Assembly: GCF_006716865.1 (NCBI RefSeq)
Contig: NZ_VFPT01000001.1
Location: 2,723,001-2,787,000, forward strand
Length of the DNA stretch: 64,000 nucleotides
Reading direction: 5' to 3'
From: Roseinatronobacter monicus
Lineage (GTDB): Bacteria; Pseudomonadota; Alphaproteobacteria; Rhodobacterales; Rhodobacteraceae
Part shown: piece after piece, positions 1,313 to 56,760 of the stretch
How the letters are laid out: every line of letters starts with the position of its first letter
How positions within the stretch are numbered: position 1 is the first letter of the stretch
Translations under genes and position numbers: made by a program
Notes under the pieces: model-generated
What the model saw: the letters and a program-made list of their open reading frames with translations, nothing else
What the model was told of the DNA's origin: nothing
Databases searched by the model: none

Positions 1313-1687
1313 TCACTTCTTGCGGTTTTTGATCTGTGCGTAAATGCTGACGCCAAACAGGAACGCTTCCATCAGGGCGGGAAAGTCACCTTTTGGCCGG
1401 TATCCTTCGCCACGCGCCGATTGCGCGCGCAACTGCTGATCCAGTGTCGGGATTACTGGCGCTCTGCGCCCGCGAAATGCCAACACAATCAGGCCCAGAC
1501 CACATAGAATTGCCCCGCAGGCAAAATTTGCAATCAGCGGAGAAAATTCCTCAGCAAGGATAAGCCACCCTGCCGAGACCAGAAAGCCACCGCCCACCGC
1601 CAGAAGCGCGCCGCCCAATGCGGCGATGACAATCTGGCGCATTTGCCATTGCAGCCTCAGCCGGATTTGATGGTACGGAACCAGCAT
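1313..1687 (-). CDS. Holin-like / phage_holin_3_6-type small membrane protein
   Basis: The protein has 124 residues with two hydrophobic segments, roughly residues 17-42 and 49-70, separated by a short polar loop. A basic C terminus ends in KNRKK. This fits the holin superfamily III-like membrane proteins that many alphaproteobacteria carry next to a DUF883 gene, where they act as envelope stress proteins and are not phage-derived. Its ATG overlaps the stop of the DUF883 gene by one base (TGATG), so the two are co-translated. The EcfG-like promoter upstream of the DUF883 gene should serve both. Confidence 0.7.
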   Translation of the reverse strand: MLVPYHQIRLRLQWQMRQIVIAALGGALLAVGGGFLVSAGWLILAEEFSPLIANFACGAILCGLGLIVLAFRGRRAPVIPTLDQQLRAQSARGEGYRPKGDFPALMEAFLFGVSIYAQIKNRKK

Positions 1688-2100
1688 CAGCGCCGCGACA
1701 TGAGCATGGCCAGAAGGAAGCCCGCGCCTGCCGCAATGCCCAAAGCAACGGCCGGGCGGTCTTTTGCGAAATCTTCCGCCGTGCCAAGGGCCTCTTCAAC
1801 CTGATCGGCTGCGTATTCATACCCGTCTTCGGCTGTTTCATATGCCTTGCGGCCCCGGCGACGGGCAGATTGTGCAGCGTGGCGCGCGGTGTTCTGTCCT
1901 GCCCGCTTCACGGCAGAGGTCAGTTCGGCAAGATCGGATTTCACCAATTCAAGCTGCTCGCGCAACTCGTCATAGGTCAGTTCTGCCAATTCCTCGACAT
2001 CCTGCGCGGTGCGCGCGGCATTGTCTTTGGCCTGCGCCGCTTTCGCGCTTGCGGCGGATTGGGAATTGCTCTGGGATTTATCGGTGGTTTGTCGTGACAT
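1687..2100 (-). CDS. DUF883 / ElaB-YqjD family membrane-anchored protein
   Basis: The protein has 137 residues. The N-terminal half is polar and Gln/Ala/Ser rich. A helical, probably coiled-coil middle follows (about residues 33-75), then an amphipathic segment and a C-terminal glycine-rich hydrophobic anchor ending in MSRR. This is the layout of ElaB/YqjD/DUF883 proteins, which tether to the inner membrane by the C-terminal segment and accumulate in stress or stationary phase. It is the first gene of a two-gene unit with the holin-like gene and lies about 135 bases downstream of a GGAAC-N16-CGTT promoter. A ribosome site (AGGAGAGACC) precedes the ATG. Confidence 0.8.
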   Translation of the reverse strand: MSRQTTDKSQSNSQSAASAKAAQAKDNAARTAQDVEELAELTYDELREQLELVKSDLAELTSAVKRAGQNTARHAAQSARRRGRKAYETAEDGYEYAADQVEEALGTAEDFAKDRPAVALGIAAGAGFLLAMLMSRR

Positions 2101-2243: not shown

Positions 2244-2268
2244 AACGCACTGGCCAGCGCAGGGTTCC
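2244..2268 (-). promoter_or_regulatory. EcfG-type general-stress promoter for the DUF883 operon
   Basis: On the minus strand the site reads GGAAC, a 16-base spacer, then CGTT. This is an exact match to the alphaproteobacterial EcfG consensus. It points toward the DUF883 and holin-like genes with a predicted leader of about 135 bases. Confidence 0.7.
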
Positions 2269-2603: not shown

Positions 2604-3710
2604 ATGAATGGGCTGAGCTCGGCGCTGATGGCGCAGCGCAGCTTGCGGTATCAGCTTGTCTTCAGCCTGTGTGCCGTGACCATCGCCACCGCGTTGCGCT
2701 TTGGCCTCGATGGCGTATTGCCAGCGGGCTTTCCGTTTCTGACATTCTTTCCTGCGGTGATGCTGACACTGATCTTTGCCTCGATCCGGTGTGGAATCGC
2801 GGTCGCGGTCGTTTGTGGCTTCATCGCGTGGTTCTGGTTTTTGGAACCTGCGGGGCAATTCGGGCTGACCAGTGGCACGCTTCTGGCAATCGGGTTTTAT
2901 GTGCTGATTACGACCACAGATGTGCTGTTTGTTTCGGCAGCAGTCTGGGCGCTGCGCGAGTTGAATGTCTCGCGCGTTCGGGCAAATGGGCTGGCGCATT
3001 CGCGCAGTCTTATGTTCTCGGAATTGCAGCACCGCGTGTCCAACAATCTGGCAACGATTGTCGCCCTGTTGCGGCTGCAAACTGCCAAAACAAAAGATGA
3101 TGGCGCGCGCCGCGCCCTGTCGGCGTCGCAAGCGCGGATCAAGTCGATCTCGCGCCTGCAACGCCGCCTGCATTCCGTCGATATGCAAAGTGTCGATGTG
3201 GCCGAGTATTTGCGCGAAGTGTTGCAAGACACGCTGGATGTCGCAGAGCTGGAAAAGCCGGTGGATCTGTCGATACAGGCCAGCAGACTGGTTGTGCCCA
3301 ATGATGTGGCGGTGCCACTGGGCCTTATTGCCAGCGAATTGATGATGAACTCGATCGAGCATGGCGCGGGCTTTGACCGCGAAATTTCCATTCAGGTCAC
3401 GCTTCGTTCCGAACCAGATGGAGACACAGGCGCGGTACTTGCCAGCCTGGAGTTGCGCGATAATGGCCCCGGCCTGCCGGATGATTTTGATCTGGCACAG
3501 ACCGACAGCCTTGGCCTGTCGGTTGCCAGCCAGTTTGCCACCACGCTTGACGGTGAACTGACATTGCGCAATGGCGCGGCGGGCGGCACATGGGCCATGC
3601 TGCGGTTTTCGGTGGCCCCGCTGGGAGTGCGCGAATTTGACGTCACCCCTGCGGATGAAACGCAGTCATTGCCCAACACCACATCTGAAAAGCTGCAACA
3701 GATCGGGTAG
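2604..3710 (+). CDS. DUF4118 / HisKA_2 membrane sensor histidine kinase
   Basis: The kinase has about 368 residues from the chosen ATG. Hydrophobic segments over residues ~15-110 resemble the four-helix DUF4118 membrane domain. They are followed by the HisKA_2 phospho-acceptor motif ELQHRVSNNL and a HATPase with N box (ELMMNSIEHG), DNGPGLP and GLGLS-like segments. Kinases of this HWE/HisKA_2 class often feed the PhyR-NepR-EcfG general stress pathway, which suits the EcfG-type promoters nearby. The start is uncertain: the frame is open further upstream to 2337, but the ATG at 2604 places the membrane domain directly at the N terminus. The gene is divergent from the DUF883 operon and convergent with opgG. 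Confidence 0.75.
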   Translation: MNGLSSALMAQRSLRYQLVFSLCAVTIATALRFGLDGVLPAGFPFLTFFPAVMLTLIFASIRCGIAVAVVCGFIAWFWFLEPAGQFGLTSGTLLAIGFYVLITTTDVLFVSAAVWALRELNVSRVRANGLAHSRSLMFSELQHRVSNNLATIVALLRLQTAKTKDDGARRALSASQARIKSISRLQRRLHSVDMQSVDVAEYLREVLQDTLDVAELEKPVDLSIQASRLVVPNDVAVPLGLIASELMMNSIEHGAGFDREISIQVTLRSEPDGDTGAVLASLELRDNGPGLPDDFDLAQTDSLGLSVASQFATTLDGELTLRNGAAGGTWAMLRFSVAPLGVREFDVTPADETQSLPNTTSEKLQQIG

Positions 3711-18020: not shown

Positions 18021-18045
18021 GGAACAGTTTCGCCTGAAGAGCGTT
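18021..18045 (+). promoter_or_regulatory. EcfG-type promoter upstream of a small ORF
   Basis: GGAAC, a 16-base spacer, then CGTT is an exact consensus match. The predicted transcription start is near 18052, just after the ATG at 18048. The transcript would therefore be leaderless, start at a later codon, or be non-coding until the small frame at 18130. Confidence 0.65.
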
Positions 18046-18129
18046 GTATGCACAAGCTGAAAGAAATAAACAGTAGCTCATCCAAAAAATTTCCGAACGA
18101 CTTCGCAGAGGACGCTCTCAAAAGACGCG

Positions 18130-18330
18130 TTGAAGCTGAAGCAGAAAAACGCAACAGATGAAGTGCCTTATCCAATCGAAGAGACGCCTGATCTGGGAAC
18201 GCAGCGCATCGAGCATGTCGATCAAGCCCCGTCTGGTGCGCAGGCTGACGTAGGCGACAAACCCGCGCGAGAGCGGTCGCGCGAGCGCAGACAAGGCGCG
18301 GTCAACTTAGTTATCCCCTCTAAAATCTGA
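18130..18330 (+). CDS. Small acidic/basic ORF, possibly frameshifted (18048-18330)
   Basis: A 66-codon frame starting TTG has no good ribosome site of its own. A second frame opens at the ATG 18048 (GAAGAG eight bases upstream) and runs 37 codons in an Ala/Glu/Lys-rich helix style until a TGA at 18159. Removing one A from the A5 run at 18145-18149 would join the two into one polar protein of about 93 residues. The joined protein has a helical N terminus and a Pro/Asp-rich, then Arg-rich, C terminus. I recognise no family. Either this is a stress-induced small protein with a sequencing or real frameshift, or neither frame is translated. The EcfG-type promoter just upstream argues that the segment is transcribed. 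Confidence 0.35.
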   Translation: MKLKQKNATDEVPYPIEETPDLGTQRIEHVDQAPSGAQADVGDKPARERSRERRQGAVNLVIPSKI

Positions 18331-18333
18331 AAA

Positions 18334-18371
18334 CTCCACGCTTACTTACTCACGCCTGCGCGGAGATTTTT
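18334..18371 (+). terminator. Rho-independent terminator candidate
   Basis: CTCCACGC and GCGCGGAG form an 8-bp stem with one mismatch, followed by ATTTTTA. It lies just after the small ORF and before the next EcfG-type promoter, so it separates two transcription units. Confidence 0.5.
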
Positions 18372-18408
18372 ATTCCCGAATTTAAGTTGGTCTTATTTCA
18401 AAACTTCT

Positions 18409-18433
18409 GGAACCCAATCTGATCTCACCTGTT
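18409..18433 (+). promoter_or_regulatory. EcfG-type promoter for the PRC-barrel gene
   Basis: GGAAC, 16 bases, then TGTT (equivalently GGAAC-N17-GTT) lies about 50 bases upstream of the PRC-barrel start codon. Confidence 0.65.
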
Positions 18434-18482
18434 TATCTGGCAGAGCCTTTTAGGAGGCCGAGTGAATGATAGGAGTAGTGTT

Positions 18483-19433
18483 ATGAACAAGTTTATGCTT
18501 ACAACCGCGATTGTCGCAGTCACCTCGATGGGGGCCGTTGCACAAACAGCTGATACGGACACAGCACAGTCATCAGAGAATGTTCCGGCGTTTCTGGCCA
18601 CAGACTTTACTGGCAAGGACCTGTATACGCTGGATACTGAAGAAACACGCGCTCTGACAGAGGGCGAGATGGCTGAAGATCAGAGTGCCTGGGAACGCAC
18701 CAGCGCACGCTGGGGCAGTGGCGAGGTCTTTACCTCTGGACGCGAGTCTTGGGAAAATGTCGGTAATATCGACGACATCATCATGACGATGGACGGTGAA
18801 ATCCGGGGCATCCTGATCGACGTGGGTGGCTTTCTGGGCATCGGTGCACGCAGCGTGATGGTTGATATTGATGATCTGTATTTCGTCAATGACGATCCTG
18901 AGGCCGAAGGTATTGATGACTTCTTCGTTGTGGCGACCATGACAGAAGAGCAGTTGGAAGCGCTGCCCGAATGGAGCGAAGACCAACTCACAATGGGCTT
19001 TGAACAACGCGCTCATCAGGACGCCAGTGTCGGGGCAGGCGCAACTATGGGGCATGATGACGATGTCGCCATGGATGCCACAGGCACCGAGCCAACTGAC
19101 ATGCAGACCCAGCACGAAGCCCGCACAGAAGTGCCGGATGGATATCAGGTAATGGGCGCAGAAGAGCGCACCGCTGACCGCCTGCTTGGAGCCGATGTGT
19201 ATGGCCGCGAAGGTGAAAACGTCGCCACTGTGGACGATCTTGTCCTTGGTGACACTGGCGAAGTGACACATGCAGTTATTGACGTGGGTGGTTTCCTTGG
19301 AATGGGAGAACACACTGTCGCACTGGAGATTGATGATATCGACATTCTCTGGAACGACGCCGATGGCGATGTCCGCGTTCAACTGCCGATGACACAGGAA
19401 GAGCTGGAAAGCCTGCCCGAATACGAGAGCTGA
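18483..19433 (+). CDS. Exported protein with two PRC-barrel domains
   Basis: The protein has 316 residues from the ATG behind GGAG. An N-terminal Sec signal peptide ends at AVAQ. Two PRC-barrel domains follow, each with a DVGGFLG(I/M)G strand-turn: residues ~80-145 and ~230-305. Between them is an acidic linker with Met, Thr and His. PRC-barrel proteins of this exported alphaproteobacterial group are highly acidic and often stress-induced; the fold binds partners or RNA in other contexts, but the role here is unknown. An EcfG-type promoter lies upstream and a strong terminator downstream, so it is a single-gene unit. Confidence 0.8.
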   Translation: MNKFMLTTAIVAVTSMGAVAQTADTDTAQSSENVPAFLATDFTGKDLYTLDTEETRALTEGEMAEDQSAWERTSARWGSGEVFTSGRESWENVGNIDDIIMTMDGEIRGILIDVGGFLGIGARSVMVDIDDLYFVNDDPEAEGIDDFFVVATMTEEQLEALPEWSEDQLTMGFEQRAHQDASVGAGATMGHDDDVAMDATGTEPTDMQTQHEARTEVPDGYQVMGAEERTADRLLGADVYGREGENVATVDDLVLGDTGEVTHAVIDVGGFLGMGEHTVALEIDDIDILWNDADGDVRVQLPMTQEELESLPEYES

Positions 19434-19473
19434 TCTTTCCGCGCCTGTAACGAGTGTTGCGTAACGAGTATCA

Positions 19474-19500
19474 AGGCCCGCCGAAAGGCGGGCCTGTTTT
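19474..19500 (+). terminator. Strong Rho-independent terminator after the PRC-barrel gene
   Basis: AGGCCCGCC-GAAA-GGCGGGCCT forms a perfect 9-bp stem with a GAAA tetraloop, followed by GTTTT. Confidence 0.9.
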
Positions 19501-19529
19501 ACGTGCAGGGCATCGCATCAAATTCTGTT

Positions 19530-19554
19530 GGAACCAACTGATCTGGACCGCGTT
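19530..19554 (+). promoter_or_regulatory. EcfG-type promoter for a 25-residue peptide gene
   Basis: GGAAC, a 16-base spacer, then CGTT is an exact match. It lies just after the PRC-barrel terminator and about 50 bases before the ATG of the small peptide. Confidence 0.7.
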
Positions 19555-19604
19555 GTATCGACAGACTTGCATTTCTGCCGCTTGGGAACAGAAAAGGATC
19601 AGAT

Positions 19605-19682
19605 ATGCGCGGTGTTTTGTTATGGTTTGTGGGGGTTCCCATCCCCGTAATTATCCTGTTGTTCCTTTTTGGGTTGCTATGA
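19605..19682 (+). CDS. 25-residue hydrophobic membrane peptide under an EcfG-type promoter
   Basis: The frame of 25 codons begins MRGVLLWFVG and ends LLFLFGLL. It is almost entirely hydrophobic, with one arginine near the N terminus and a Pro-Ile-Pro kink in the middle, so it should span the inner membrane once. AAGGA lies seven bases before the ATG. The gene has its own EcfG-type promoter at 19530-19554 and sits between a terminator and the cytochrome oxidase operon. I cannot assign a family name. Tiny stress-induced membrane peptides of this type are widespread, and the promoter plus ribosome site make chance unlikely. Confidence 0.6.
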   Translation: MRGVLLWFVGVPIPVIILLFLFGLL

Positions 19683-19794
19683 GTTTTGCGGCGACCCCTG
19701 CAAGCGGCCCGTAGAGACAGCGCGTTGCGGCTGCATTTAACCGACACTTATGGGACCATCATAACGAAATGAGACCAAGAATATTTTACCAGAC

Positions 19795-20511
19795 ATGACC
19801 AGTATGACACCATATTGCGGCCCTGCACCCGAGCGGACTGATTGGTTTGGGGCATGGAATTTTGACCCTTATCTGCTGACTGCGCTACTTGTATTGTGTC
19901 TATGGGGCGCATTAACCCTGCGCCATCAGCAACGGGACCGAAAAGGCGCGGCGACACTCGCTATGGGTGCAGCGCTGCTTGCCTTCGTATCGCCCTTATG
20001 TGCGATGACGGTTGCGTTGTTCTCGGCGCGCACATTGCATCATCTGGTGGTGTTCGGGCTTCTTGCACCGGCCTTGGCGCTGGCCTTTCCCATTCGCAAG
20101 GTCCCGGTTGTGGCCAGCTTTGCAGCTCTGTCAGCCGCGCTGTGGTTGTGGCATATCCCGCAGGTATACAGCGCCGCATGGGACAGTGCGCTGGTTTACT
20201 GGGCCATGCAGGCGGCGCTGATCTTGCCCGCTTGGGCCTTCTGGTCGGTTATTCTTGGCCGCAGCAAGCTGGAACATGTGGTCTGGCTGGTTCCGCTGGT
20301 GGGGCAAATGGGCCTGCTTGGGGCGCTATTGACCTTTGCGCAGCGCCCGTTTTACCTTGAACATCTGACCCATGCCGAGCGCTTCGGGCTGTCAGCGCTG
20401 CAGGACCAACAGCTTGCGGGCCTGATCATGTGGGTGCCCGGCATGATCCCTGTGGCCATTCTGGCCGGAATTATGGCGCAGCGCGTGTTGCGCCGGGACA
20501 TGCACATATGA
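19795..20511 (+). CDS. ctaG: CtaG/caa3-type cytochrome c oxidase assembly membrane protein
   Basis: The protein has 238 residues and about six to seven transmembrane helices. It shows the family pattern HHLVVFGLLAPALALAFP, WLWHIPQVYSAAW and a final DQQLAGLIMWVPG. The caa3_CtaG family supports assembly of the CuB centre of haem-copper oxidases. It starts the five-gene unit ctaG-copD-coxB-coxA/C-orf, in which every junction is a 4-base ATGA overlap, so all are co-translated. The ATG follows an AT-rich stretch without a strong ribosome site. Confidence 0.85.
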   Translation: MTSMTPYCGPAPERTDWFGAWNFDPYLLTALLVLCLWGALTLRHQQRDRKGAATLAMGAALLAFVSPLCAMTVALFSARTLHHLVVFGLLAPALALAFPIRKVPVVASFAALSAALWLWHIPQVYSAAWDSALVYWAMQAALILPAWAFWSVILGRSKLEHVVWLVPLVGQMGLLGALLTFAQRPFYLEHLTHAERFGLSALQDQQLAGLIMWVPGMIPVAILAGIMAQRVLRRDMHI

Positions 20512-21014
20512 TTGCGGCATTGAAGGCGGCGCATATCATCGCCTTGTCCATCTGGTGTGCCGGACTGATCCTGCTGCCGATCCTGCTGCATATCTATGGG
20601 CGCAGGCCAGAGATGCGCAGTCAGGCCGGATTCACCGAATTTCGATGGCTGACGCATTACAGTTATATCGCTGTCATCACCCCTGCGGCGGTGATCGCTG
20701 TGTCAGTCGGAACAGTCCTGATCTTCGCATTGGAGGTGCTGAACGCCTGGATGCTGGCCAAGCTGATCGCGGTGGCGGGCATGGTGCTGCTGCATGCGTG
20801 GATGGGGCATCTGATCGTGCAGGCCGGCGAGGGGCGCGGTGACTTTCACTTGCCGATGGCGGGGCTTTCGCTGCTGGCGCTGGTGCCGCTGATCGGCTTG
20901 GTGCTGTGGCTGGTGCTTGCCAAACCATCCTTGGAGGAGCTGATCGCACTGCTGCCGTCAATCCTGCAAGAGCCGCGTGGCAACCCGATACCCGCAAGGT
21001 TTAATCCCCTATGA
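20508..21014 (+). CDS. CopD-like membrane protein of the oxidase operon
   Basis: The protein has 168 residues and four predicted helices with conserved histidines (AAHIIALSIWCAGL, THYSYIAVITPA, LLHAWMGH). These resemble the CopD/YcnJ copper-resistance membrane domain. Between ctaG and coxB it most plausibly handles copper delivery or maturation for the oxidase. The start codon overlaps the ctaG stop, and the stop overlaps coxB (ATGA). Confidence 0.75.
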   Translation: MIAALKAAHIIALSIWCAGLILLPILLHIYGRRPEMRSQAGFTEFRWLTHYSYIAVITPAAVIAVSVGTVLIFALEVLNAWMLAKLIAVAGMVLLHAWMGHLIVQAGEGRGDFHLPMAGLSLLALVPLIGLVLWLVLAKPSLEELIALLPSILQEPRGNPIPARFNPL

Positions 21015-21694
21015 CCCGCCCTGCCCTGTTATTGCTTGCAACCACTTTGCTGGCCGCCTGCGATGGCCCGCTATCAACGCTGCGCCCCTCTGGCCCGATT
21101 GCAGCCGATATTGCGTGGCTGTGGTGGGTGATGCTGGCGGGGGCTGTGCTGATTACGGTTTTTGTGCTGGTCTTGCTGGTCCTCGCATTCGGTGCGCCGC
21201 GCCGTGTGCAGGCACGGATCTGGACGCATGGGCTGGGCCTGTGGTTCTCGCTGGTGATCCTGAGCGCGGTTCTGGGGGCTGGTCTGTGGGTGGGCGAGCG
21301 TATTTTGCCGCGCGATGATGGCGCGGTCACAGTGCAGGCCCATGCGTTTCAATGGGGGTGGGAGTTCACGCATACCGATGCAGACGGGCAAGAGGTGCAG
21401 ACAGCCAATCTGCTGCACATCCCCGCGGGCCAGCCCGTTGATGTGCTGATCACATCAGAGGATGTGATCCATTCCTTCTGGGTGCCACAGCTTGCAGGCA
21501 AGATGGACGCCATCCCTGGCCGCACCAACCGCACCCGGATCGAGGCCGATGCCCCTGGCGTTTATGAAGGCCTATGCGCCGAGTTTTGCGGCATCGGGCA
21601 CGCGCGCATGCGCTTTTCCGTGCAGGCGCATACGGACTGGCCGCCCGACTGGTCCGAGGAAGCTGACACCGACACGCAGGAGGGCGCGCCATGA
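21011..21694 (+). CDS. coxB: Cytochrome c oxidase subunit II
   Basis: The protein has 227 residues. The N terminus is a lipoprotein signal with lipobox LLAAC (Cys near residue 17), followed by two transmembrane helices. A periplasmic cupredoxin domain contains the CuA site (CAEFCGIGHARM, plus an upstream His in VIHSFWVP). There is no C-terminal haem c motif, so this is an aa3/ba3-like subunit and not the caa3 form. The CuA ligands indicate cytochrome c, not quinol, as donor. Confidence 0.92.
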   Translation: MTRPALLLLATTLLAACDGPLSTLRPSGPIAADIAWLWWVMLAGAVLITVFVLVLLVLAFGAPRRVQARIWTHGLGLWFSLVILSAVLGAGLWVGERILPRDDGAVTVQAHAFQWGWEFTHTDADGQEVQTANLLHIPAGQPVDVLITSEDVIHSFWVPQLAGKMDAIPGRTNRTRIEADAPGVYEGLCAEFCGIGHARMRFSVQAHTDWPPDWSEEADTDTQEGAP

Positions 21695-24225
21695 CCGATG
21701 CCACCACCCCGACTGTGGCCCCAGAGCGTGCGGCACCCGTCACGCTTGCGCGCAACCCGTCCCAGCGCGCCTTGGGGCTGCACCGGGAATTGACGCGGGT
21801 CTGGCGCAATGATCGCGGACTTTGGGGGCAGATAACAGCGGTGAACCACACCACGCTGGGGCTGCGCTTTATGGGCACCGCGCTGATCTTTTTTGCCATT
21901 GGCGGCATTCTGTCCATGCTGATCCGCGCTCAGCTTGCCACGCATGAAGGCGCGTTTCTGGATACTGACCTGTATAACCAGATCTTCACCATGCATGGCA
22001 GCATCATGATGTTTCTCTTCGCCATTCCCATGCTGGAAGGGCTGGGCATCTGGCTGTTGCCAAAACTGCTGGGCACCCGCGACATGGCTTTTCCGCGTCT
22101 GACAGCCCTTGGCTACTGGTGCTATCTGTTTGGCGGGCTGATCATGCTGACCGCGCTTTTATTCGGCGTGGCGCCGCATGATGGCTGGTTCATGTACACG
22201 CCGCTGTCAGATGCCACCCATTCCCCCGGCATAAATGCCGATGTCTGGCTGCTGGGCGTCACCTTTGTGGAAATTTCGGCCGTTGCGGCGGCGGTCGAGA
22301 TTACCGTCACCATTCTGCGCCAGCGCGCGCCGGGAATGCGGCTGACCGAAATGCCGCTATTTGCGTGGTATATGCTGGGCACAAGCGTGATGATGCTGGT
22401 GGGCTTTCCGCCCCTGATTGCGGGCTCGGTCCTGCTGGAGTTGGAGCGCGCCTTTGGCTGGCCGTTCTTTGACCCGACACGCGGGGGTGATCCGCTGCTG
22501 TGGCAACACCTGTTCTGGCTGTTTGGCCACCCGGAGGTGTATATTATTTTTCTGCCTGCTGCGGGCGCGATGTCGATGATCATTCCCGTCATGTGCCGCA
22601 CGACGATTCTGGGATACGGGGCGATAGTCGCGGCCATATTGGCGCTGGTCTTTCTGTCTTTCGGGCTGTGGGTGCATCACATGTTCACGGTCGGCATTCC
22701 GCATATGGCGCTGGCGTTTTTCTCGGCGGCGTCCGTGCTGGTGGCCGTGCCCACGGCAGTGCAGGTTTTCGCGTGGATCGGCACCATGTGGAAGGGACGG
22801 CCAGAGATGCATCTGCCGATGTATCACATCCTTGGCTTTTTCCTGACCTTCGTGATGGGCGGGCTGACAGGCGTGATGCTGGCCATCGTGCCGTTCAACT
22901 GGCAGGCCCATGACACGGCCTTTGTCACAGCCCATCTGCATTATGTGCTGATCGGCGGCTTTGTCTTTCCGATGATGGCGGCAGCAACCTATTGGTTGCC
23001 CCTGATTTCGGGCAAGCGCCGCATCAAGGGCTTGGGCGAAGCAGCGTTCTGGGTGATCCTGCTGGGGTTTCACGGCACGTTCTTCATCATGCATCTGACC
23101 GGATTGCTGGGGATGCCGCGCCGGATAGATGTCTATCCTGACAACCCCGAATGGGTCTGGCTGAACCTGACCTCGTCCATCTTCAGTTTCGTGCTGACCA
23201 TCGGGTTTGCAATGTTCGTGCTGGACTTGATCCTGCAAGTGACGCTTGGCAAACGCGAACGCCGCGATCCGTGGCGCGCACCGACGCTGGATTGGGCCAT
23301 GCCGATCCCGTCGCCCAGCTATAACTTCGCCTCGATCCCGACACCGCAGCAACTTGGCCACACGGCGCACAACACCGTCTTGTCTTTGGCGCGCGGTGAA
23401 GGGGCGCTGCCGGGTGCCCCAAGGGGGCGGCGGGAATTGCTGGTCACATCCGTGGGCGATGCGCAGCCCCATCACGTGGCCCTCCTGCCCGGCAATACGG
23501 CCCTGCCCTTGGGGCTGTCGGCAAGTATCGGGGTGTTTGTGGTCCTAATGCTGGCCGGCCAATATGCGCTTGCCGGATTGGCGCTGGTGCCTGTGGCGGT
23601 GCTGATCTGGGTCTGGGCGCGCGGCATGGCCCCTGCGGGCGATCTGGGGCGGGTGCTTGTCGCACCTGACCTGCGCCTGCCGGTTCACCACCGTGTGCAT
23701 CCCAGCCTTGGCAGAACCGGCCTGAGTGCGTTTTTGGTGGCAAATGGCACGTTGTTCGTCTCGTTGATGTTCGGGGTAGCGTTCTTGTCTGTCGTCACCC
23801 CCGCGAGCGTGCCGCCAGGTGCAGGGGCGCAAACCCTGCCCGGCGCGCTTGGCCTTGGCCTCATAGCCATCGCGCTGGCACTGGCCGCAGGGGTTGCGCG
23901 CACGCCCACGCGCGGCGCTGTTGCCCTGACACTGGGCTTGAACCTTGTGGGGCTGCTGGCGTTGTTATGGCTCGCGCTCAGCCAGATGGATGACCCCACG
24001 CGCCATGCGCGCGATGCCTTGCGCGCGGTTCTTGCGGGCTATGTCGGGCTGCATATACTAGTGGCAGCGGCGATGGCGGCGTTTGTGCTGGACCAGTTCC
24101 GGCGCAGGGAAATTGACGCGCAAACCCAAGGTGCGCTGAGCGCGTGGCAACTTTGGCAAGGCTTCACGACGGCTGTCGCGCTAATCTCGGTGGTGGTGCT
24201 TGGCGCGCAGGTGGTGCTGTCATGA
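21691..24225 (+). CDS. coxA: Fused cytochrome c oxidase subunit I-III (CoxA-CoxC)
   Basis: The protein has 844 residues. Residues ~45-560 are subunit I with twelve helices and haem-copper motifs: FTMHGSIMMF (low-spin haem His), LFGHPEVYI (CuB His cross-linked Tyr region), WVHHMFTVG (two CuB His) and TAHLHYVLIGG (haem a3 and a His). After a polar linker, residues ~595-844 carry about seven more helices typical of a fused subunit III-like domain. It reduces O2 to water in the inner membrane and pumps protons. A separate CoxC gene is absent here, consistent with the fusion. Confidence 0.9.
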   Translation: MTDATTPTVAPERAAPVTLARNPSQRALGLHRELTRVWRNDRGLWGQITAVNHTTLGLRFMGTALIFFAIGGILSMLIRAQLATHEGAFLDTDLYNQIFTMHGSIMMFLFAIPMLEGLGIWLLPKLLGTRDMAFPRLTALGYWCYLFGGLIMLTALLFGVAPHDGWFMYTPLSDATHSPGINADVWLLGVTFVEISAVAAAVEITVTILRQRAPGMRLTEMPLFAWYMLGTSVMMLVGFPPLIAGSVLLELERAFGWPFFDPTRGGDPLLWQHLFWLFGHPEVYIIFLPAAGAMSMIIPVMCRTTILGYGAIVAAILALVFLSFGLWVHHMFTVGIPHMALAFFSAASVLVAVPTAVQVFAWIGTMWKGRPEMHLPMYHILGFFLTFVMGGLTGVMLAIVPFNWQAHDTAFVTAHLHYVLIGGFVFPMMAAATYWLPLISGKRRIKGLGEAAFWVILLGFHGTFFIMHLTGLLGMPRRIDVYPDNPEWVWLNLTSSIFSFVLTIGFAMFVLDLILQVTLGKRERRDPWRAPTLDWAMPIPSPSYNFASIPTPQQLGHTAHNTVLSLARGEGALPGAPRGRRELLVTSVGDAQPHHVALLPGNTALPLGLSASIGVFVVLMLAGQYALAGLALVPVAVLIWVWARGMAPAGDLGRVLVAPDLRLPVHHRVHPSLGRTGLSAFLVANGTLFVSLMFGVAFLSVVTPASVPPGAGAQTLPGALGLGLIAIALALAAGVARTPTRGAVALTLGLNLVGLLALLWLALSQMDDPTRHARDALRAVLAGYVGLHILVAAAMAAFVLDQFRRREIDAQTQGALSAWQLWQGFTTAVALISVVVLGAQVVLS

Positions 24226-24521
24226 GGTGGCTTGCGCATCTGATCGCAGGCCCGACACTTTGGGCACTCGTGTTCAGCCTTGTCTATGGCGCGCATGGTT
24301 GGGCCTGTGCCGCCCAAACCAGCCCAGAGGGGCTTGGTTCCGCAAGCCGTATGATGCTGGTTTCGCTTTGGGTGCTGGGGCTGATTGCCTTCATTCCCTT
24401 GTTGCGTATTGCCCCCACTGGGCCGCACCTGCGCCACAAATTGCCGCGCGCCGCCACTTGGATCGGGCTGGGGGCCACAGTTTTCACCCTGTTCCCCGTG
24501 GTTGCCATCACAAGCTGCTAA
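24222..24521 (+). CDS. Small membrane protein of the oxidase operon
   Basis: The protein has 99 residues and about three predicted helices, with Cys residues in GWACAAQT and at the C-terminal ITSC. It is the last gene of the ATGA-linked oxidase operon. Small helical proteins in this position often stabilise the complex or complete the subunit III/IV module, but no family was recognised. Confidence 0.65.
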   Translation: MRWLAHLIAGPTLWALVFSLVYGAHGWACAAQTSPEGLGSASRMMLVSLWVLGLIAFIPLLRIAPTGPHLRHKLPRAATWIGLGATVFTLFPVVAITSC

Positions 24522-24530
24522 AAGAAAGAA

Positions 24531-24563
24531 CCCGCCTTGCCACGAGGGAACGAGCAAGGCGGG
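24531..24563. terminator. Hairpin after the oxidase operon
   Basis: CCCGCCTTGC and GCAAGGCGGG form a perfect 10-bp stem ten bases after the last stop codon. There is no T run on the plus strand; on the minus strand it is followed by TTCTTTCTTTT. Confidence 0.55.
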
Positions 24564-24721
24564 CCAGTCAGGTCTGAGAGGTATCGGGAGGAATAGATAC
24601 GCCCCAATAACCGAACGGGAACATTAGCCTAACAAACGCAGAAACCAATGGTTCCGCCACTTTTGAAAATTTCTTAAGATCAACAGTCATATGCTTGTGA
24701 ACTCATGCACGTGACCGCAGC

Positions 24722-24752
24722 AAACCCCGCGCCCTGATGGGCGCGGGGTTTT
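24722..24752. terminator. Bidirectional Rho-independent terminator
   Basis: AAACCCCGCGCCC-TGAT-GGGCGCGGGGTTT is a near-perfect hairpin followed by T (plus strand) and by TGCTG after GGGGTTT (minus strand). It most likely ends the minus-strand membrane protein gene at 24788. The 190 bases before it (24564-24721) contain no gene I can see. Confidence 0.8.
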
Positions 24753-24787
24753 GCCTTTGGCGGTCAGAACAATCGGGTTGCGGGCGT

Positions 24788-25075
24788 TCAGTCCCCTGCC
24801 GGTGGCACCGGATCTTCCTCTAACGCAGGGTCCGGCTCCTCAATCTGGGGGGCACCTGTGTCATCTGGCCCAGAAACAGACCCTTCAGCAGGAATACCTG
24901 TTGCGTCTTGGGCTTGCTCAGGGGGGGCCTGATCCGCTTCAGGCGTTCCCATCATAGTCTGGCTGATAAACCAGCCCAAAAGCAGGACCGCCACAGTGAC
25001 ACCAAGCGCCATACCGATCAGCGGACCCTTGTGGCGCTTTTTCTGCTTTTTCAGGTTTGTGTCGGGAGGGGTCAT
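24788..25075 (-). CDS. Small single-span membrane protein with acidic Pro-rich tail
   Basis: The protein has 95 residues from an ATG behind GGAAAGGAAAA. A basic N terminus (NLKKQKKRHKG) precedes one transmembrane helix (~residues 17-37). A periplasmic tail follows that is rich in Pro, Asp, Glu and Gly and low in complexity. I recognise no family. An EcfG-type promoter (25170-25194) lies about 90 bases upstream and a bidirectional terminator downstream, so it appears to be a single stress-regulated gene. It is divergent from the NepR-like ORF. Confidence 0.65.
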   Translation of the reverse strand: MTPPDTNLKKQKKRHKGPLIGMALGVTVAVLLLGWFISQTMMGTPEADQAPPEQAQDATGIPAEGSVSGPDDTGAPQIEEPDPALEEDPVPPAGD

Positions 25076-25169
25076 AAATTTTCCTTTCCCCGCCACCTGT
25101 GTCCAACCCAAAAATTACTGTGATGGAAATGGCAGGCGGCGTGTTTCCGCATGTGGGTTTCACAATCTA

Positions 25170-25194
25170 AACGCAGAACCCACGATCAGGTTCC
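25170..25194 (-). promoter_or_regulatory. EcfG-type promoter for the small membrane protein
   Basis: On the minus strand the site reads GGAAC, a 16-base spacer, then CGTT (exact match). A weaker plus-strand site, GGAAC-N16-CATT at 25247-25271, faces the NepR-like ORF. Confidence 0.7.
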
Positions 25195-25320
25195 GTGCCG
25201 CGCTATGGCAGGAATGTCGCAAATTGCGAAAACCACCTCTGGCGGCGGAACCGAATGACCGGCCAGCCATTTTGTAAGCTCAACCGCAGCATGAAACCCA
25301 CCTGCAAGACAGAAAGACAC

Positions 25321-25614
25321 ATGAGTACCCCTATGACCCAGATGCAGCAAATTGACGCGAATTTGCGTCGCTCGTATCAGCTCGACCCAACGGGCGGGTT
25401 GCCAGATACGCTGGCGGACCTGCTGGACCGCTTCGATGAGGTGGATCGCGGGGTGGCTAAAGATGTGGGCGCAACCACCCCAGAACAGCCGTCTGCGCAT
25501 GTTCCAGCCAGCCAATCCTATCAAGATCAGCCTCGCTCACCAATGGGGCAACTGCGCAATCTGTTTCAAAGATACGGATTTGCTCGGCCACGAAACCAGC
25601 GTCGTACACGTTAA
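25321..25614 (+). CDS. NepR-like anti-sigma factor candidate
   Basis: The protein has 97 residues. Residues 8-40 contain IDANLRRSYQ ... LPDTLADLLDRFDE, closely following the NepR pattern (IDxNLRRxY ... xPDRFxDLLxxL) of two helices that bind EcfG sigma factors and PhyR. The rest is polar and unlike NepR. Its last 158 bases overlap the 3' end of the convergent cardiolipin-synthase-like gene, which is unusual and means the true protein could be shorter. The ATG at 25321 has a weak ribosome site. A GGAAC-N16-CATT site lies about 50-75 bases upstream. A NepR homologue inside a cluster of EcfG-type promoters is consistent with feedback control. No ecfG or phyR gene is in the window. Confidence 0.5.
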   Translation: MSTPMTQMQQIDANLRRSYQLDPTGGLPDTLADLLDRFDEVDRGVAKDVGATTPEQPSAHVPASQSYQDQPRSPMGQLRNLFQRYGFARPRNQRRTR

Positions 25615-26605
25615 GGTTCGCCTCGTCATTCAACCGGAAAGAGCGTTCATCGAAATTGGCTGACCCGACCGAAGCCCAGCAGTCATCTACAATTATCAGC
25701 TTGGCATGCAGAAATGTCGGCGCATATTCGTGAATCTGAACGCCTGCGGCCAGCAATTTGCGCCAAGCCAAACGTGACACGCGACGCACCAGCCAAGAAT
25801 CCGTGTGTTTGCCCGCAATCAGCAAGTCGACTTTGACCCCCCGCGCGCGCGCCTCAAGCAATTGCGCGATGGCCACCTTGTCAGGCACAAAATACGGCGT
25901 CGAGATGCGGATATGGTTTCGGGCAGCGGCCAGCGCCGTCATGAACATCAGGTGAATTTCATTGCGACTGCCGGTGTTGCTTTTGACCATCTGCACCTCG
26001 GCCTCGCCGACCTCGCGCAACAGCGGATAGAATGCTGGCCCGCGCAAGACCTCGCCACTGGCCTCGACCCAGTTATGCGCAAAGGCATTTTGCAACAGCG
26101 CCACCACTGGCCCTGTGACGCGGTAATGCGTGTCGCGCCATTCCTGCGCGTTGCGCGCATCGCCCATCCAGACATCGGCAATACCGACACCGCCGATAAA
26201 GCCTGCCTTGCCATCCACGACCAGCACCTTGCGATGCGTTCTGTTGTTCAGCCGCGACAGGGTGCGCGGGCGCATTGGGCGGAACATGCGCAGGTCCACA
26301 CCGCCCTGATGCATCCGCTCAATCAGGTCATCATCCATCGGCAGGCCGCCGACCCAATCGATCAGCACCTTTACCGGAACCCCTGCCTGCGCACGCTCAA
26401 TCAGCAGATCACAAAACCGGTTTGCGATCTGGCCACTCCAGTAAATATAGGTTTCAAACGTAATCGAATGCTGCGCCTGACTGATCGAGAACAGCATATC
26501 ATCGAAGATGGCATCCCCGTTTATCAATGTCTCGATATGGTTGCCGCCAAGGATCGGGCTTCCGTACAGACCGGCCATGTCACGCTTGAACTGCGGGTCA
26601 TTCAC
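25457..26605 (-). CDS. cls: Cardiolipin synthase / phospholipase D-like protein (GTG start)
   Basis: The protein has 382 residues with two PLD repeats: HRKVLVVDGKAGFIGG (HKD-type, first half) and HAKLIIVDDCWASVGSAN (second half). N-terminal IETLINGDAIFDDM and ETYIYW are typical of ClsB-like enzymes. It would condense phosphatidylglycerol to cardiolipin or transfer a phosphatidyl group at the membrane. I place the start at the GTG 26605 because it overlaps the stop of a 45-codon membrane-anchor ORF by four bases (GTGA). Further upstream the same frame is open but non-protein-like. A minus-strand EcfG-type promoter (26772-26797) drives the pair. Confidence 0.82.
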   Translation of the reverse strand: MNDPQFKRDMAGLYGSPILGGNHIETLINGDAIFDDMLFSISQAQHSITFETYIYWSGQIANRFCDLLIERAQAGVPVKVLIDWVGGLPMDDDLIERMHQGGVDLRMFRPMRPRTLSRLNNRTHRKVLVVDGKAGFIGGVGIADVWMGDARNAQEWRDTHYRVTGPVVALLQNAFAHNWVEASGEVLRGPAFYPLLREVGEAEVQMVKSNTGSRNEIHLMFMTALAAARNHIRISTPYFVPDKVAIAQLLEARARGVKVDLLIAGKHTDSWLVRRVSRLAWRKLLAAGVQIHEYAPTFLHAKLIIVDDCWASVGSANFDERSFRLNDEANLNVYDAGFVAEQIRIFETDCAVAPLVSEADLDRIGWLEHAQTAVLGWLRPHL

Positions 26606-26739
26606 AGCGGCACCGGGCGGCGCAGCTCTCGACGATAGGGCATCAGCGCGATCAGAAAGAACCAAAACAGAAACAGCCCCAGCACCGCAGCAACTCCCGC
26701 GCGGATCTTCCGACGAAAACGATGCGGCAGTCGGGGCAT
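26602..26739 (-). CDS. 45-residue membrane-anchor peptide coupled to cls
   Basis: The peptide starts MPRLPHRFRRKIRAG, a strongly basic N terminus, then one long hydrophobic helix, and ends RRELRRPVPL. Its TGA overlaps the GTG start of the PLD gene (GTGA). Many PLD-type synthases carry exactly such an N-terminal anchor in the same chain. Here it is a separate reading frame: either a genuine split gene with translational coupling or the result of a one- or two-base frameshift in a once-continuous gene. The ribosome site is weak (GAGACC). The EcfG-type promoter lies about 30 bases upstream. Confidence 0.5.
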   Translation of the reverse strand: MPRLPHRFRRKIRAGVAAVLGLFLFWFFLIALMPYRRELRRPVPL

Positions 26740-26771
26740 GAAGGTCTCGCGCTTTGGAAATACTTTGGGAT

Positions 26772-26797
26772 AACGCCAACCGCATCGGGTTGGTTCC
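26772..26797 (-). promoter_or_regulatory. EcfG-type promoter for the anchor-cls pair
   Basis: On the minus strand the site reads GGAAC, a 17-base spacer, then CGTT. It is back to back with the plus-strand site at 26817-26841. Confidence 0.65.
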
Positions 26798-26816
26798 CGT
26801 AATAATTTGTCACTAC

Positions 26817-26841
26817 GGAACCTTACACGCATTCATGCGTT
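26817..26841 (+). promoter_or_regulatory. EcfG-type promoter for the AI-2E family gene
   Basis: GGAAC, a 16-base spacer, then CGTT (exact match) lies 41 bases before the TTG start at 26882. The site rules out starts further upstream in the same frame. Confidence 0.7.
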
Positions 26842-26881
26842 AGACAAATCACACACGTGCTTTTTAGCTCTGGAAAACACA

Positions 26882-28054
26882 TTGCCCCCTTCCACGCCGA
26901 ATTTCAAACCCCCTGACGCTTTGCGCGCAGCGCGGCATCCACCGGTGCCTGCGGGCGCAGTGGTTGGTATCTTCATCATCCTGCTGCTTGCGGCTGTGCA
27001 ACATGCCCGCGAGTTTTTATTGCCCGTCGTCGTGGCGCTTTTGTTGTTCTTCGTCTTTGTGCCGGTGCAGCGCCGCCTGCAACGCATCGGATTGCCGGGG
27101 GCCGCGATTGCTGCGGTTCTGGTGCTGGGCCTTTTGGTGGGGATTGCGGCCATATTCTTCTTGCTGAGTGGCCCGGTTATGGAAGTGGCGAATAACCTGC
27201 CGGATATAGTGCAGGACATCACCGCCCGGATCGAAGCCGCGCGCGATGTTTTTCTGGCAATCGTCCAAGGGTTTCGCGCGGGCGAAGAGACGGACATCCC
27301 GCAATTGCGCCCTGCCCCTGCCGAGGCAATCGCAGAGAATGGCGAAAGTCAGGAAAGCGATCTGCTGATGAGCACTGTCAGCGGCGCGCTGGTCTATCTG
27401 GCCGAAACCCCCGCGATGGTCGCGCAGGTCATTTTCGCGCTGGTCCTGTTGTTCTTTTTGCTGTCATCCAGCGATTTAATCTATCTGAAGATCATCCAGA
27501 GCTTTGACGGCTTCGGAGAGAAGCGCGCCGCCTATAATGCGCTGCGCGAGGTGGAACAGAACCTTGGCGGCTATCTGGGCACAGTGTCATTTATCAATGC
27601 GGGCCTTGGCGTCAGCATAGGACTGGCAATGTGGGCGCTGGGTATGCCCGTGCCGTTGCTGTTCGCGGTGCTGGCATTTTTGCTGAACTTCATTCCCTAT
27701 CTGGGCGCTGTGATGGGTGTTGTGCTGGCATCATTGGTGGCGCTGCTGTGGTACGATACATTGTTGAGCGTGTTAATGGTGGCAGGCGTCTATATGATGC
27801 TGACGACATTTGAAGGACAGTTGATAACCCCCAGCCTGCTGGCCAGACGGTTGCGCATGAACACGGTGCTTGTGTTTCTGTCGGTCGCGTTTTGGGCGTG
27901 GATGTGGTCATTTCTAGGAATGCTGATCGCGGTGCCGCTGCTGGTTGCCTTGCGTGTCATCTCGGAACAGATCCCCGGCTGGCGCAAATTCGCAAACCTC
28001 TTGTCGGGAGAGGCGCCGCCTGTCCCGGCCCCCCCGGAAATAGAAACGCTCTGA
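26882..28054 (+). CDS. AI-2E family transporter / PerM-like membrane protein
   Basis: The protein has about 390 residues with roughly eight hydrophobic helices in the AI-2E (UPF0118, PerM/TqsA/YdiK) arrangement: three N-terminal helices, a periplasmic/cytoplasmic domain at ~105-205, then helices with FLLNFIPYLGAVMGVV and a final LIAVPLLVALRV. Members export small molecules or act as Na+/H+ antiporters; the substrate here is unknown. I choose the TTG at 26882 because it follows GGAAA and lies downstream of the EcfG-type promoter. Its expression is probably stress-linked, together with the divergent cls unit. Confidence 0.8.
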   Translation: MPPSTPNFKPPDALRAARHPPVPAGAVVGIFIILLLAAVQHAREFLLPVVVALLLFFVFVPVQRRLQRIGLPGAAIAAVLVLGLLVGIAAIFFLLSGPVMEVANNLPDIVQDITARIEAARDVFLAIVQGFRAGEETDIPQLRPAPAEAIAENGESQESDLLMSTVSGALVYLAETPAMVAQVIFALVLLFFLLSSSDLIYLKIIQSFDGFGEKRAAYNALREVEQNLGGYLGTVSFINAGLGVSIGLAMWALGMPVPLLFAVLAFLLNFIPYLGAVMGVVLASLVALLWYDTLLSVLMVAGVYMMLTTFEGQLITPSLLARRLRMNTVLVFLSVAFWAWMWSFLGMLIAVPLLVALRVISEQIPGWRKFANLLSGEAPPVPAPPEIETL

Positions 28055-28138
28055 TATTGGTGCGCGCGGTCGGATGGGCGTGCGTGAACCGCCTTGATTC
28101 CAGAATAACCTGTAAAATGGGTATCGTTTAATAGAAAA

Positions 28139-28163
28139 CCGGCGCTGCAAGTTGCAGCGCCGG
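28139..28163. terminator. Bidirectional terminator between AI-2E and csbD genes
   Basis: CCGGCGCTGC-AAGTT-GCAGCGCCGG forms a perfect 10-bp stem. On the minus strand, the csbD direction, it is followed by TTTTC. Confidence 0.85.
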
Positions 28164-28171
28164 ATAATCAT

Positions 28172-28369
28172 TCAGCTCTTGGACGACCATTCGTCAACTT
28201 GCTTTTCAGCTTCGTCCTTGGCGATGCCGTATCTTTCCTGAATCTTGCCAACAAGCTTGTCGCGCTTGCCTGCGGCTTGATCCAGATCGTCATCGGTCAG
28301 CTTGCCCCATTGGTCTTTCGCGGAGCCCTTGATTTGCTTCCATTTACCTTCAATTTGATCCCAGTTCAT
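28172..28369 (-). CDS. CsbD family stress protein
   Basis: The protein has 65 residues starting MNWDQIEGKWKQIKG, the hallmark of the CsbD family. It is small, charged and helical, with GKxxDDDLDQAAGKRDKLVGKIQ and a C-terminal EVDEW-like segment. CsbD proteins are induced by general stress in many bacteria, but their function is unknown. The ATG at 28369 follows GGGGAAAG. An EcfG-type promoter lies 35 bases upstream and a terminator just after the stop, so it is a compact single-gene unit. Confidence 0.9.
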   Translation of the reverse strand: MNWDQIEGKWKQIKGSAKDQWGKLTDDDLDQAAGKRDKLVGKIQERYGIAKDEAEKQVDEWSSKS

Positions 28370-28403
28370 GATCTTTCCCCTTTCAAAATGAGTATGCATC
28401 TAC

Positions 28404-28428
28404 AACGCTCTGAACGGGTCAAGGTTCC
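28404..28428 (-). promoter_or_regulatory. EcfG-type promoter for csbD
   Basis: On the minus strand the site reads GGAAC, a 16-base spacer, then CGTT (exact match). The predicted leader is about 28 bases. Confidence 0.75.
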
Positions 28429-51596: not shown

Positions 51597-51790
51597 ATCC
51601 TGACGCTCCGACAAGTACGATTCCGCGTGCCTCCGCTGCCCTGCCCGCTGCCAGATCTGCACGCCTGCGATGCAGCAGGACGTCAAATTCATGCCGCAAT
51701 CGCTCATAACCGTCATGCACCACAAACTGTGCACGGAGTTCGGAGACAATCTGGCCCACCGCAACAAGGCGCTCTGCGTCTGCTCGGTAA

Positions 51791-53929: not shown

Positions 53930-54636
53930 CAGACTGCCCCCCCAGGCTTCAGGAAGGAATGAGGGGCAATGATGCCGGGCGAGACGAGCGCAAGTTTGCC
54001 ATTGCCGATGGCGCGCAGAATTGCGCCGTGGGCGCGGCTCCCAGGACCGGTCAAGCGATGCAGGTCTGCTATGGAGACAGTCCCCTGGAGCGTTCTGATT
54101 GCGGCTTCGAGCAGCGCGTCCGCAGCTGAGTCTGGTGCCTTGCGCGCTTCGTGAAGCATGCCTGCGTTGGCTGCCTGCCAAGGAGAATATTGCGCATCAG
54201 TGAACAGGCGGAATTCATCCGCATGCTCTGGCACGAGCATGGCCTCAACCGCCGATAGCTTTTCTATAAGGGCTGGATCTTGTGCTCTGTGGGCAGGCTT
54301 GACCTCCACGGCGATCTTTTTGCCGTCCGCAAGTGTGACGAGAAAATCGACCGTGTATTTCGCGAGGCGGCCGCGACAGTCGGTGTAGCGAAGGGACACC
54401 GACTGCTCCTCGACATTGACGACGTCTTGCCGTGCCAGAGTGAGCAAAATGAAATTGCGCTCCAAGCCGCTCTCGAAGAAGATCTGACGCCCTTCGGGCG
54501 CACTTGGGAGCTTTGCAACGAGAAAGCCTCGAACGCTGATCGGCGACTTCATCGCAGGCCGCCGCAGCGCGCTGCTTGGAAGCGGCAAACGTGTCGGGGC
54601 AGTTGTTTGGGCGAGATCGCCAATTTGGTTATGCAT
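53929..54636 (-). CDS. tnsA: TnsA-type endonuclease
   Basis: The protein has 235 residues from the ATG 54636, behind GGAAGGAAAAAA. The restriction-endonuclease-like core has FFESGLERNFILL (Glu), KYTVDFLVTLADG (Asp) and KIAVEVKP (Glu-x-Lys). A C-terminal winged-helix domain follows. TnsA cleaves the 5' ends during cut-and-paste Tn7 transposition, which makes this a Tn7-like and not a Tn5053-like system. The gene is intact. Confidence 0.9.
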   Translation of the reverse strand: MHNQIGDLAQTTAPTRLPLPSSALRRPAMKSPISVRGFLVAKLPSAPEGRQIFFESGLERNFILLTLARQDVVNVEEQSVSLRYTDCRGRLAKYTVDFLVTLADGKKIAVEVKPAHRAQDPALIEKLSAVEAMLVPEHADEFRLFTDAQYSPWQAANAGMLHEARKAPDSAADALLEAAIRTLQGTVSIADLHRLTGPGSRAHGAILRAIGNGKLALVSPGIIAPHSFLKPGGAV

Positions 54637-56711: not shown

Positions 56712-56760
56712 TAGCGACGTTCAAAGGCAAAGATTTCAGGTCAAGATATTGGGGGTGGCA

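Follow-up and report, generated by a model that had tools for sequence, protein, structure and literature searches.

Within a stretch of 64,000 nucleotides from Roseinatronobacter monicus (the window, C1:2723001-2787000 on contig NZ_VFPT01000001.1, in a genome of 4.725 Mb and 6 contigs), short promoter-like sites crowd together next to the genes of the alphaproteobacterial general stress response. We regard it as very probable that these sites are promoters of EcfG, the general-stress sigma factor of class ECF15 among the extracytoplasmic function (ECF) factors, and that they form a compact regulon round EcfG's own regulator. By analogy with the known pathway, a kinase would sense stress and phosphorylate PhyR, PhyR would take NepR off EcfG, and EcfG with RNA polymerase would then start transcription at the sites of the cluster. 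The predicted products are small membrane and stress proteins (DUF1328, CsbD, PRC-barrel, DUF883 and AI-2E family), a cardiolipin synthase and a ctaG-coxB-coxA terminal oxidase. An IS4/5-type transposase gene interrupts phyR in this genome, and the switch is probably stuck off.

Sites crowded round the regulator genes

An earlier note on this DNA had named eight EcfG-type sites, and an exact scan for GGAAC-N16/17-YGTT (the looser motif) recovered all of them, with matching coordinates and strands. It added three: 24631 (-), which belongs to the cluster, and two far from it, namely 52749 (-) within a long open reading frame (ORF, 51791-54181) that our simple gene caller had rejected and 60974 (+) within a called gene. 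The suspicion that so many sites exceed chance is borne out, as the 11 matches in the window compare with a mean of 1.53 and a maximum of 5 in 100 dinucleotide shuffles, none of which reached 11. Genome-wide, the density scan that the note had proposed gave 103 matches, 13 of them in C1:2716302-2751428, a cluster of 35.1 kb with nine sites inside the window and four to its left; across 20,000 uniform placements of 103 sites, the densest 35.1-kb stretch held 10. A wrong-spacing control for this motif (N22/23) matched 67 times in the genome and once in the cluster. The description of the sites as all intergenic and pointing into nearby starts of stress-type genes needs some trimming. Twelve of the 13 cluster sites do lie outside called ORFs, whereas 28404 falls inside one, albeit only an ORF antisense to csbD; the orientation largely holds, except at 18021, where the gene start is unclear, and at 26772, where the N-terminal part of cls lies in another frame. 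Site 18409 reads TGTT rather than CGTT.

At 2-7 kb left of the window sit phyR, nepR, ecfG and a PhyK-like HRXXN kinase gene, in an order typical of the alphaproteobacterial general stress response. The suggestion to look for ecfG-nepR-phyR elsewhere in the genome was thus answered close by, 3.9-6.6 kb from the window edge, with an EcfG-class sigma factor present and phyR broken. The locus combines the sigma factor, a nepR frame that directly precedes ecfG and ends four bases into it, a kinase of the HRXXN (HWE/HisKA_2) type, and sites before both phyR and nepR-ecfG. An intact PhyR, with sigma-like domain and receiver, is absent from this locus, the gene being split by a DDE transposase gene. 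Relatives of ecfG that stand beside phyR are 63-89% identical to it; its assignment to ECF15 rests on general sigma-domain Pfam matches rather than on an ECF15-specific model. The kinase's best NCBIfam match is PhyK, at 222 bits and below that model's cut-off of 750. Besides the divergent pair between phyR and nepR, two further cluster sites lie left of the window.

Conservation in the genus and the family

The number of sites follows the presence of PhyR. Our sample comprised 37 genomes of the genus (Roseinatronobacter/Natronohydrobacter), 19 with PhyR and 18 without, a true PhyR being a match of at least 45.5 bits to PF22233; the remaining matches scored at most 29.9 bits and were treated as other sigma factors. 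Organisms of the Roseinatronobacter, Natronohydrobacter and Rhabdonatronobacter type have soda lakes as their habitat. The 18 relatives with PhyR are the same 18 of 35 same-genus relatives that have a NepR match, three of these matches being below the family cut-off. A strict motif, GGAACC-N15/16-CGTT, occurs at a median of 4.69 sites per Mb in the 19 PhyR-bearing genomes vs 1.98 in the other 18, a 2.4-fold difference (totals 322 and 110; Mann-Whitney p=3.3e-6), and its wrong-spacing control (N19/20) gives totals of 126 and 72 (p=0.07). Six clusters could be read in one piece; their 130 kb hold 56 of 145 strict sites and none of 57 wrong-spacing sites. One genome bin contains two phyR-nepR-ecfG loci (G013:C85 and C225), possibly through duplication or mixing of the bin.

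Placement before particular genes is conserved as well. For each conserved gene we looked for a site upstream on the same strand in the retrieved loci of the genus, counted every miss, and left out matches with query coverage below 40%, identity below the set limits, a missing N-terminal part or less than 120 bases of room. A site precedes DUF1328 in 13/13 loci, the tiny membrane protein gene tiny25 in 7/7, nepR in 18/19 and phyR in 17/20; the figures are 12/13 for the small membrane protein MP24788, 12/14 for CsbD, and 6/7 each for PRC and cls. For ctaG it is 14 of 19 loci within 220 bases, with two more in which the site stands before tiny25-ctaG. The phyR of the window genome (G000) was scored as a miss only because the insertion separated its start from the query fragment; the site itself is in place. 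Internal genes (DUF2231, an FNR-type reductase, coxA, coxB, DUF2383 and HK1) have a site before them in 0 of 96 cases, and four wrong-spacing controls pooled over all genes examined give 10 in 1012. Both the gene layout and the sites are conserved in other PhyR-bearing species.

The same pattern reaches beyond the genus. In the 20 kb round phyR in 40 PhyR-bearing genomes of 40 other genera (39 of the same family, chosen by high PhyR score and long contigs, and G047 of another family), we counted 128 strict sites, whereas four wrong spacings gave 2-5 apiece and the remainder of those genomes, with sizes rounded, would predict 3.6; for the looser motif the figures are 217 vs 28. Part of this excess consists of autoregulatory sites of phyR and nepR-ecfG. 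In a gene tally that omitted matches under 50% coverage and two kinase, two transposase and one glycosyltransferase queries, sites precede CsbD in 15/17 cases, DUF1328 in 17/25 and AI-2E-like genes in 8/17; none was found upstream of DUF883 (0/9) or cls-like genes (0/6) in these genera. The gathering of predicted EcfG targets round phyR is thus a family trend, of which this genus is a strong case. Statements from cited papers, here and below, draw on extracts of them: csbD is described as a direct EcfG target in Sphingopyxis granuli (PMC7083833), and EcfG as confined to the Alphaproteobacteria (PMC3892343). The EcfG relative at 42% identity that is encoded in a record titled Pseudomonas reidholzensis (L118) may accordingly be a different ECF factor, a transfer or contamination.

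Several results weigh against a regulon so neatly confined and so regularly kept. The site is not retained everywhere in the genus: it precedes ORF78 in 9/15 loci, AI-2E in 8/10 and DUF883 in only 2/13, the last because the gene follows csbD in several other species. In other genera, a strict site is missing from the 10 kb on either side of phyR in five of the 40 loci. Outside the cluster, the looser motif still occurs 90 times vs 66 for the wrong spacing (p=0.065), which leaves room for about two dozen sites, and several of these matches stand before plausible stress genes, encoding what we take from their sequences to be YciE/DUF892-like, PLDc_N-like, CarD-like and DJ-1-like proteins. Two of the 90 lie in the window; the 89 rows that we classified represent 87 distinct sites, two counted twice, and 32 of the rows fall outside called ORFs, 23 of these with a called start at most 350 bases downstream. 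With the strict motif no excess outside clusters was detected (correct to wrong spacing 89:57 in six PhyR-bearing genomes vs 110:72 in the 18 lacking PhyR, p=1.0), a ratio test that would overlook a few true sites per genome. Since restriction to the cluster rests on the strict motif, the looser motif weakens any claim that all EcfG targets lie there. Finally, with phyR interrupted and no second PhyR found, the promoters may be silent in this genome.

Could base composition simply have enriched chance matches? A motif this short is expected to turn up by chance, the 18 genomes lacking PhyR hold 1-12 strict matches each, and 57 of the 89 classified rows outside the cluster lie within called ORFs. 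The shuffles and random placements described above, the lack of enrichment of wrong spacings in clusters, and orthologous placement before first genes only make this explanation extremely improbable, and we reject it for the cluster taken together, though individual sites such as 24631 may yet be chance matches. Another ECF sigma factor sharing the -35 box could in principle use the sites, as GGAAC-like -35 boxes are frequent among ECF factors and the genome has 22 Sigma70_r4_2 matches, PhyR's own included. We nevertheless consider it very unlikely and reject it as the principal explanation. Site number tracks PhyR, placement is conserved, and the sites surround ecfG itself, in other genera too; they also fit the published EcfG consensus sequences GGAAC-N16-CGTT and GAAC-N16,17-C/GGTT (PMC7083833, PMC4814048). 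The earlier note's assignment to EcfG, drawn from the consensus, thereby gains support from the adjoining ecfG and nepR, from the correlation with PhyR and from sites that are kept before the same genes while wrong spacings are not.

An oxidase operon, a second NepR and a broken switch

The candidate targets include a terminal oxidase. We infer that EcfG drives ctaG-coxB-coxA in this genus, a reading based on sequence and on the placement of sites. The site counted for G010 precedes tiny25, with ctaG following; among the five loci scored as ctaG misses, G000 and G020 likewise carry the site before tiny25, and the other three (G014, which lacks PhyR, G016, and a second copy in G021) have another form of the operon, in which DUF2231 is included. 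A coxA of at least 70% identity is present in 18 of 19 genomes with PhyR and 1 of 18 without (Fisher p=2e-8), a tally in which contig ends truncate several matches and the other form of the operon occurs once in each group, in G016 and G014 respectively. The oxidase operon is absent within 10 kb of phyR in all 40 loci from other genera. The second copy in G021 (G021:C3, L167) lies on another contig and has no EcfG site; CsbD, DUF883 and the 124-aa ORF are nearby. According to the title of one paper (PMC5436846), Pseudomonas aeruginosa reportedly expresses an A-type cytochrome c oxidase when starved, which may be a parallel to an oxidase under stress control. In the extracts of openly licensed literature that treat EcfG, its regulon and cytochrome c oxidase together, no oxidase under EcfG control was found, and the main text of the Sphingopyxis granuli regulon paper (PMC7083833) contains no word beginning with oxidase or cytochrome.

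Inside the cluster we also found a second NepR-like gene, NepR2, whose domain spans codons 9-40 and whose tail overlaps the 3' end of cls. In G010 and G020 homologues occupy the corresponding position next to cls, and G011 has a weaker one. Between G000 and G010, identity at first, second and third codon positions is 0.70/0.68/0.38 over codons 8-44, outside the cls overlap, and third-position identity in the other two pairs is 0.43 and 0.30; outside the overlap, the codon pattern is as expected for a putative protein under selection. With a domain just above the Pfam cut-off and conservation at the protein level, NepR2 qualifies as a NepR-like protein. Conservation of its C-terminal tail was considered and set aside, the pattern there following the cls antisense frame instead. 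A protein search returned one homologue, 98% identical, by a method that overlooks relatives sharing few 5-residue words, and the window scan found no site of the searched pattern before the gene. By analogy with the paralogues of Methylobacterium extorquens and Sinorhizobium meliloti (PMC4814048), NepR2 could act as a second anti-sigma factor or as a competitor for PhyR.

The transposase gene that splits phyR (IS4/5-type, L031:14165-14989) is accompanied by a 6-base direct repeat at L031:14132 and 15066, spotted by eye; a search near the ends gave no inverted match above 5 bases, which leaves the limits of the element uncertain, and a 7-base match from the repeat search is not the insertion-site repeat. 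What follows the insertion is a C-terminal piece of 225 aa that still contains the receiver and some of the sigma-like region. All 225 residues align within a 320-aa open frame in the relative G010. An intact 264-aa allele that represents six sequences on six contigs in a large protein set is 98% identical to the fragment, from which we conclude that the insertion is probably recent; this allele (P0003) has the PF22029 sigma-2 part, which the piece (P0002) lacks. Elsewhere in the genome, PhyR matches are limited to one sigma factor at 27.6 bits and five weak hits that cover the receiver part. Because PhyR removes NepR from EcfG in the published pathway (PMC8103513) and phyR is broken here, the regulon is predicted to be not normally inducible in this strain, its switch probably stuck off.

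Damage extends beyond phyR. A PAS/GAF-rich gene for a hybrid histidine kinase (window 12517-17587) is cut by an IS1595-type transposase gene (14970-15956) into pieces at 15869-17587 and 12517-14928, both of which match a single open frame in G010; an identical copy of this transposase lies at about 34387-35370. In cls, the reading frame changes between the N-terminal membrane segment and the PLD domains, whereas G010, G020 and G031 have one continuous frame, a difference that may reflect mutation or sequencing error. Together, the split kinase and the cls frame break suggest relaxed selection on the cluster. They also bear on whether a truncated PhyR, leak or turnover of NepR might still let EcfG work. 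The promoters and ecfG are intact and the C-terminal PhyR piece retains its receiver and part of its sigma-like region, all of which would permit some activity; nonetheless nepR is intact and a second NepR present, the PhyR piece lacks the sigma-2 part found in the nearly identical allele, and the neighbouring lesions suggest relaxed selection. On balance a regulon that still operates here seems unlikely, and we favour a switch that is locked off.

Features of the window and of the regulator locus to its left (negative numbers are window positions left of position 1, equal to the L031 position minus 20000)
Feature	Position	Strand	Evidence and remarks
DUF2383 and DUF1328 genes	-7488 to -6730		
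phyR, interrupted	-6588 to about -4647		divergent from nepR-ecfG; PhyR_sigma-like 48.7 bits
EcfG sites between phyR and nepR-ecfG	C1:2718237 / C1:2718244	+ / -	overlapping and divergent
nepR	about -4653 to -4468		PF18557 38.5 bits at C1:2718404-2718505
ecfG	-4471 to -3896 (L031:15529-16104)		Sigma70_r2 60.7, PhyR_sigma2 57.7, Sigma70_r4_2 54.7 bits
HisKA_2 kinase	-3879 to -2134		HisKA_2 78.9 bits; HRXXN motif VHHRVKNN
DUF2231 gene	-2079 to -1570		
124-aa ORF after DUF883 gene	1313-1687	-	no Pfam match
DUF883-family gene	1687..2100	-	PF19029 32.1 bits; start 143 bases after -10 of site 2244
EcfG-type site	2244..2268	-	N16, CGTT
Second HisKA_2/HWE kinase, DUF4118	2604..3710	+	Pfam; HRXXN motif LQHRVSNN; same place in G010, G020
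EcfG-type site before small ORF	18021..18045	+	
Small ORF behind 18021	66-aa frame 18130-18330	+	start unclear here; 60-62% over 45 aa in G021, G012, with site upstream
EcfG-type site	18409..18433	+	TGTT variant
PRC-barrel protein, 316 aa	18483..19433	+	PF05239 58.8 bits
EcfG-type site before tiny25 and ctaG-cox operon	19530..19554	+	
tiny25, 25-aa membrane protein	19605..19682	+	ORF with Shine-Dalgarno; 80-92% identical in G010, G020, G021, G012
Operon: ctaG 19795-20511; UPF0093 membrane protein 20505-21014; coxB 21011-21694; coxA 21691-24225 (844 aa)	19795..24225	+	Pfam, NCBIfam
EcfG-type site	24631..24655	-	TGTT; nearest ATG frame 18 aa; no convincing gene behind
MP24788, small membrane protein	24788..25075	-	no Pfam match
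EcfG-type site before MP24788	25170..25194	-	
NepR2, second NepR-like gene	25321..25614	+	PF18557 27.2 bits vs cut-off 25.7
cls / PLDc protein	25457..26677	-	PF13091 140.5 bits (frame 25457-26785)
EcfG-type site before cls	26772..26797	-	N17
EcfG-type site before AI-2E family gene	26817..26841	+	divergent from cls site
AI-2E family transporter	26882..28054	+	PF01594 159.1 bits
CsbD-like protein, 65 aa	28172..28369	-	PF05532 82.1 bits
EcfG-type site before csbD	28404..28428	-	right end of cluster

Farther right, the window gives, by impression from its ORFs, an 813-aa primase/helicase-like protein of TOTE type (43617-46058), a transposon akin to the TniA/TniB/TniQ types that contains an IS256-like transposase gene (47996-54181), and a repeat-rich protein with an autotransporter-barrel-like C-terminal part (56749-58827).

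Origin of the block and comparison with known systems

How the block came to be distributed as it is can be explained in two ways: by horizontal acquisition of an island, or by an old module lost many times. Its patchiness in the genus (19/37), the oxidase that travels with it, and the sharing of the block without its flanks (0 of 14 flank genes exceeding 45% identity across the stretches of G021, G012, G018 and G013 that we read) are what an island would predict. These stretches, however, extend only from a few kb to about 30 kb past the cluster, and G010 does share the right flank, five genes at 86-96%, with no left-flank genes in common; G031 has one and G011 two flank matches at 49-51%, possibly paralogues. 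PhyR is moreover common in the family, its model cut-off being passed by 205 of 295 genomes, although low-scoring passes may be other sigma factors, and other genera, too, have their sites gathered round phyR, as would be expected of an old module that was lost repeatedly. We therefore think acquisition as an island the doubtful option. A tentative picture, which we put forward as close to evenly balanced and no firmer, is that the response of this genus is a self-contained module, in which the switch and most high-consensus targets, the oxidase included, occupy a block of 16-35 kb that is kept or lost as a unit; the window genome would be at an early stage of loss, its switch cut, its promoters standing and a second NepR left.

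The closest known systems share much of this arrangement. The EcfG-NepR-PhyR response (ECF15) has phyR divergent from nepR-ecfG and a kinase next door, a layout reviewed in PMC8103513, along with autoregulatory sites and csbD-like targets, whereas here the detectable strict sites concentrate beside the regulator and phyR is broken. In Rhodobacter sphaeroides, the phyR locus (RSP_1271, RSP_1272, RSP_1274) likewise unites a sigma factor, a 68-aa NepR-like protein, phyR and a kinase; PhyR there has a role specialised in membrane stress, and the extracts of that paper do not describe a target cluster or an oxidase operon (PMC5830050). Methylobacterium extorquens and Sinorhizobium meliloti (RsiA1/RsiA2) also have a second NepR-like protein in one genome; two M. 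extorquens paralogues bind PhyR, and each RsiA protein binds the sigma factor as well as PhyR proteins (PMC4814048). NepR2 differs from these paralogues in lying inside the target cluster, overlapping the 3' end of cls and having no site of the searched pattern before it. In the titles and abstract beginnings of openly licensed literature, clustering of EcfG promoters round phyR in Rhodobacteraceae is not described.

The system is thus of a known kind; new, as far as openly licensed literature shows, are a compact regulon kept or lost with its regulator, an oxidase as a predicted target, and promoters left standing beside a cut switch. Published regulons of this class run from about a hundred to several hundred genes, that of Sphingopyxis granuli having 104 genes in 79 transcriptional units (PMC7083833) and that of M. 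extorquens 490 genes (PMC8103513), and the contrast drawn here rests on those published sizes. A genus in which high-consensus targets surround the regulator, and in which about half of the species lack the whole set, amounts to a natural experiment in the assembly and loss of such regulons, and yields testable predictions, namely a terminal oxidase operon under EcfG and a strain whose EcfG promoters stand while its switch is broken.

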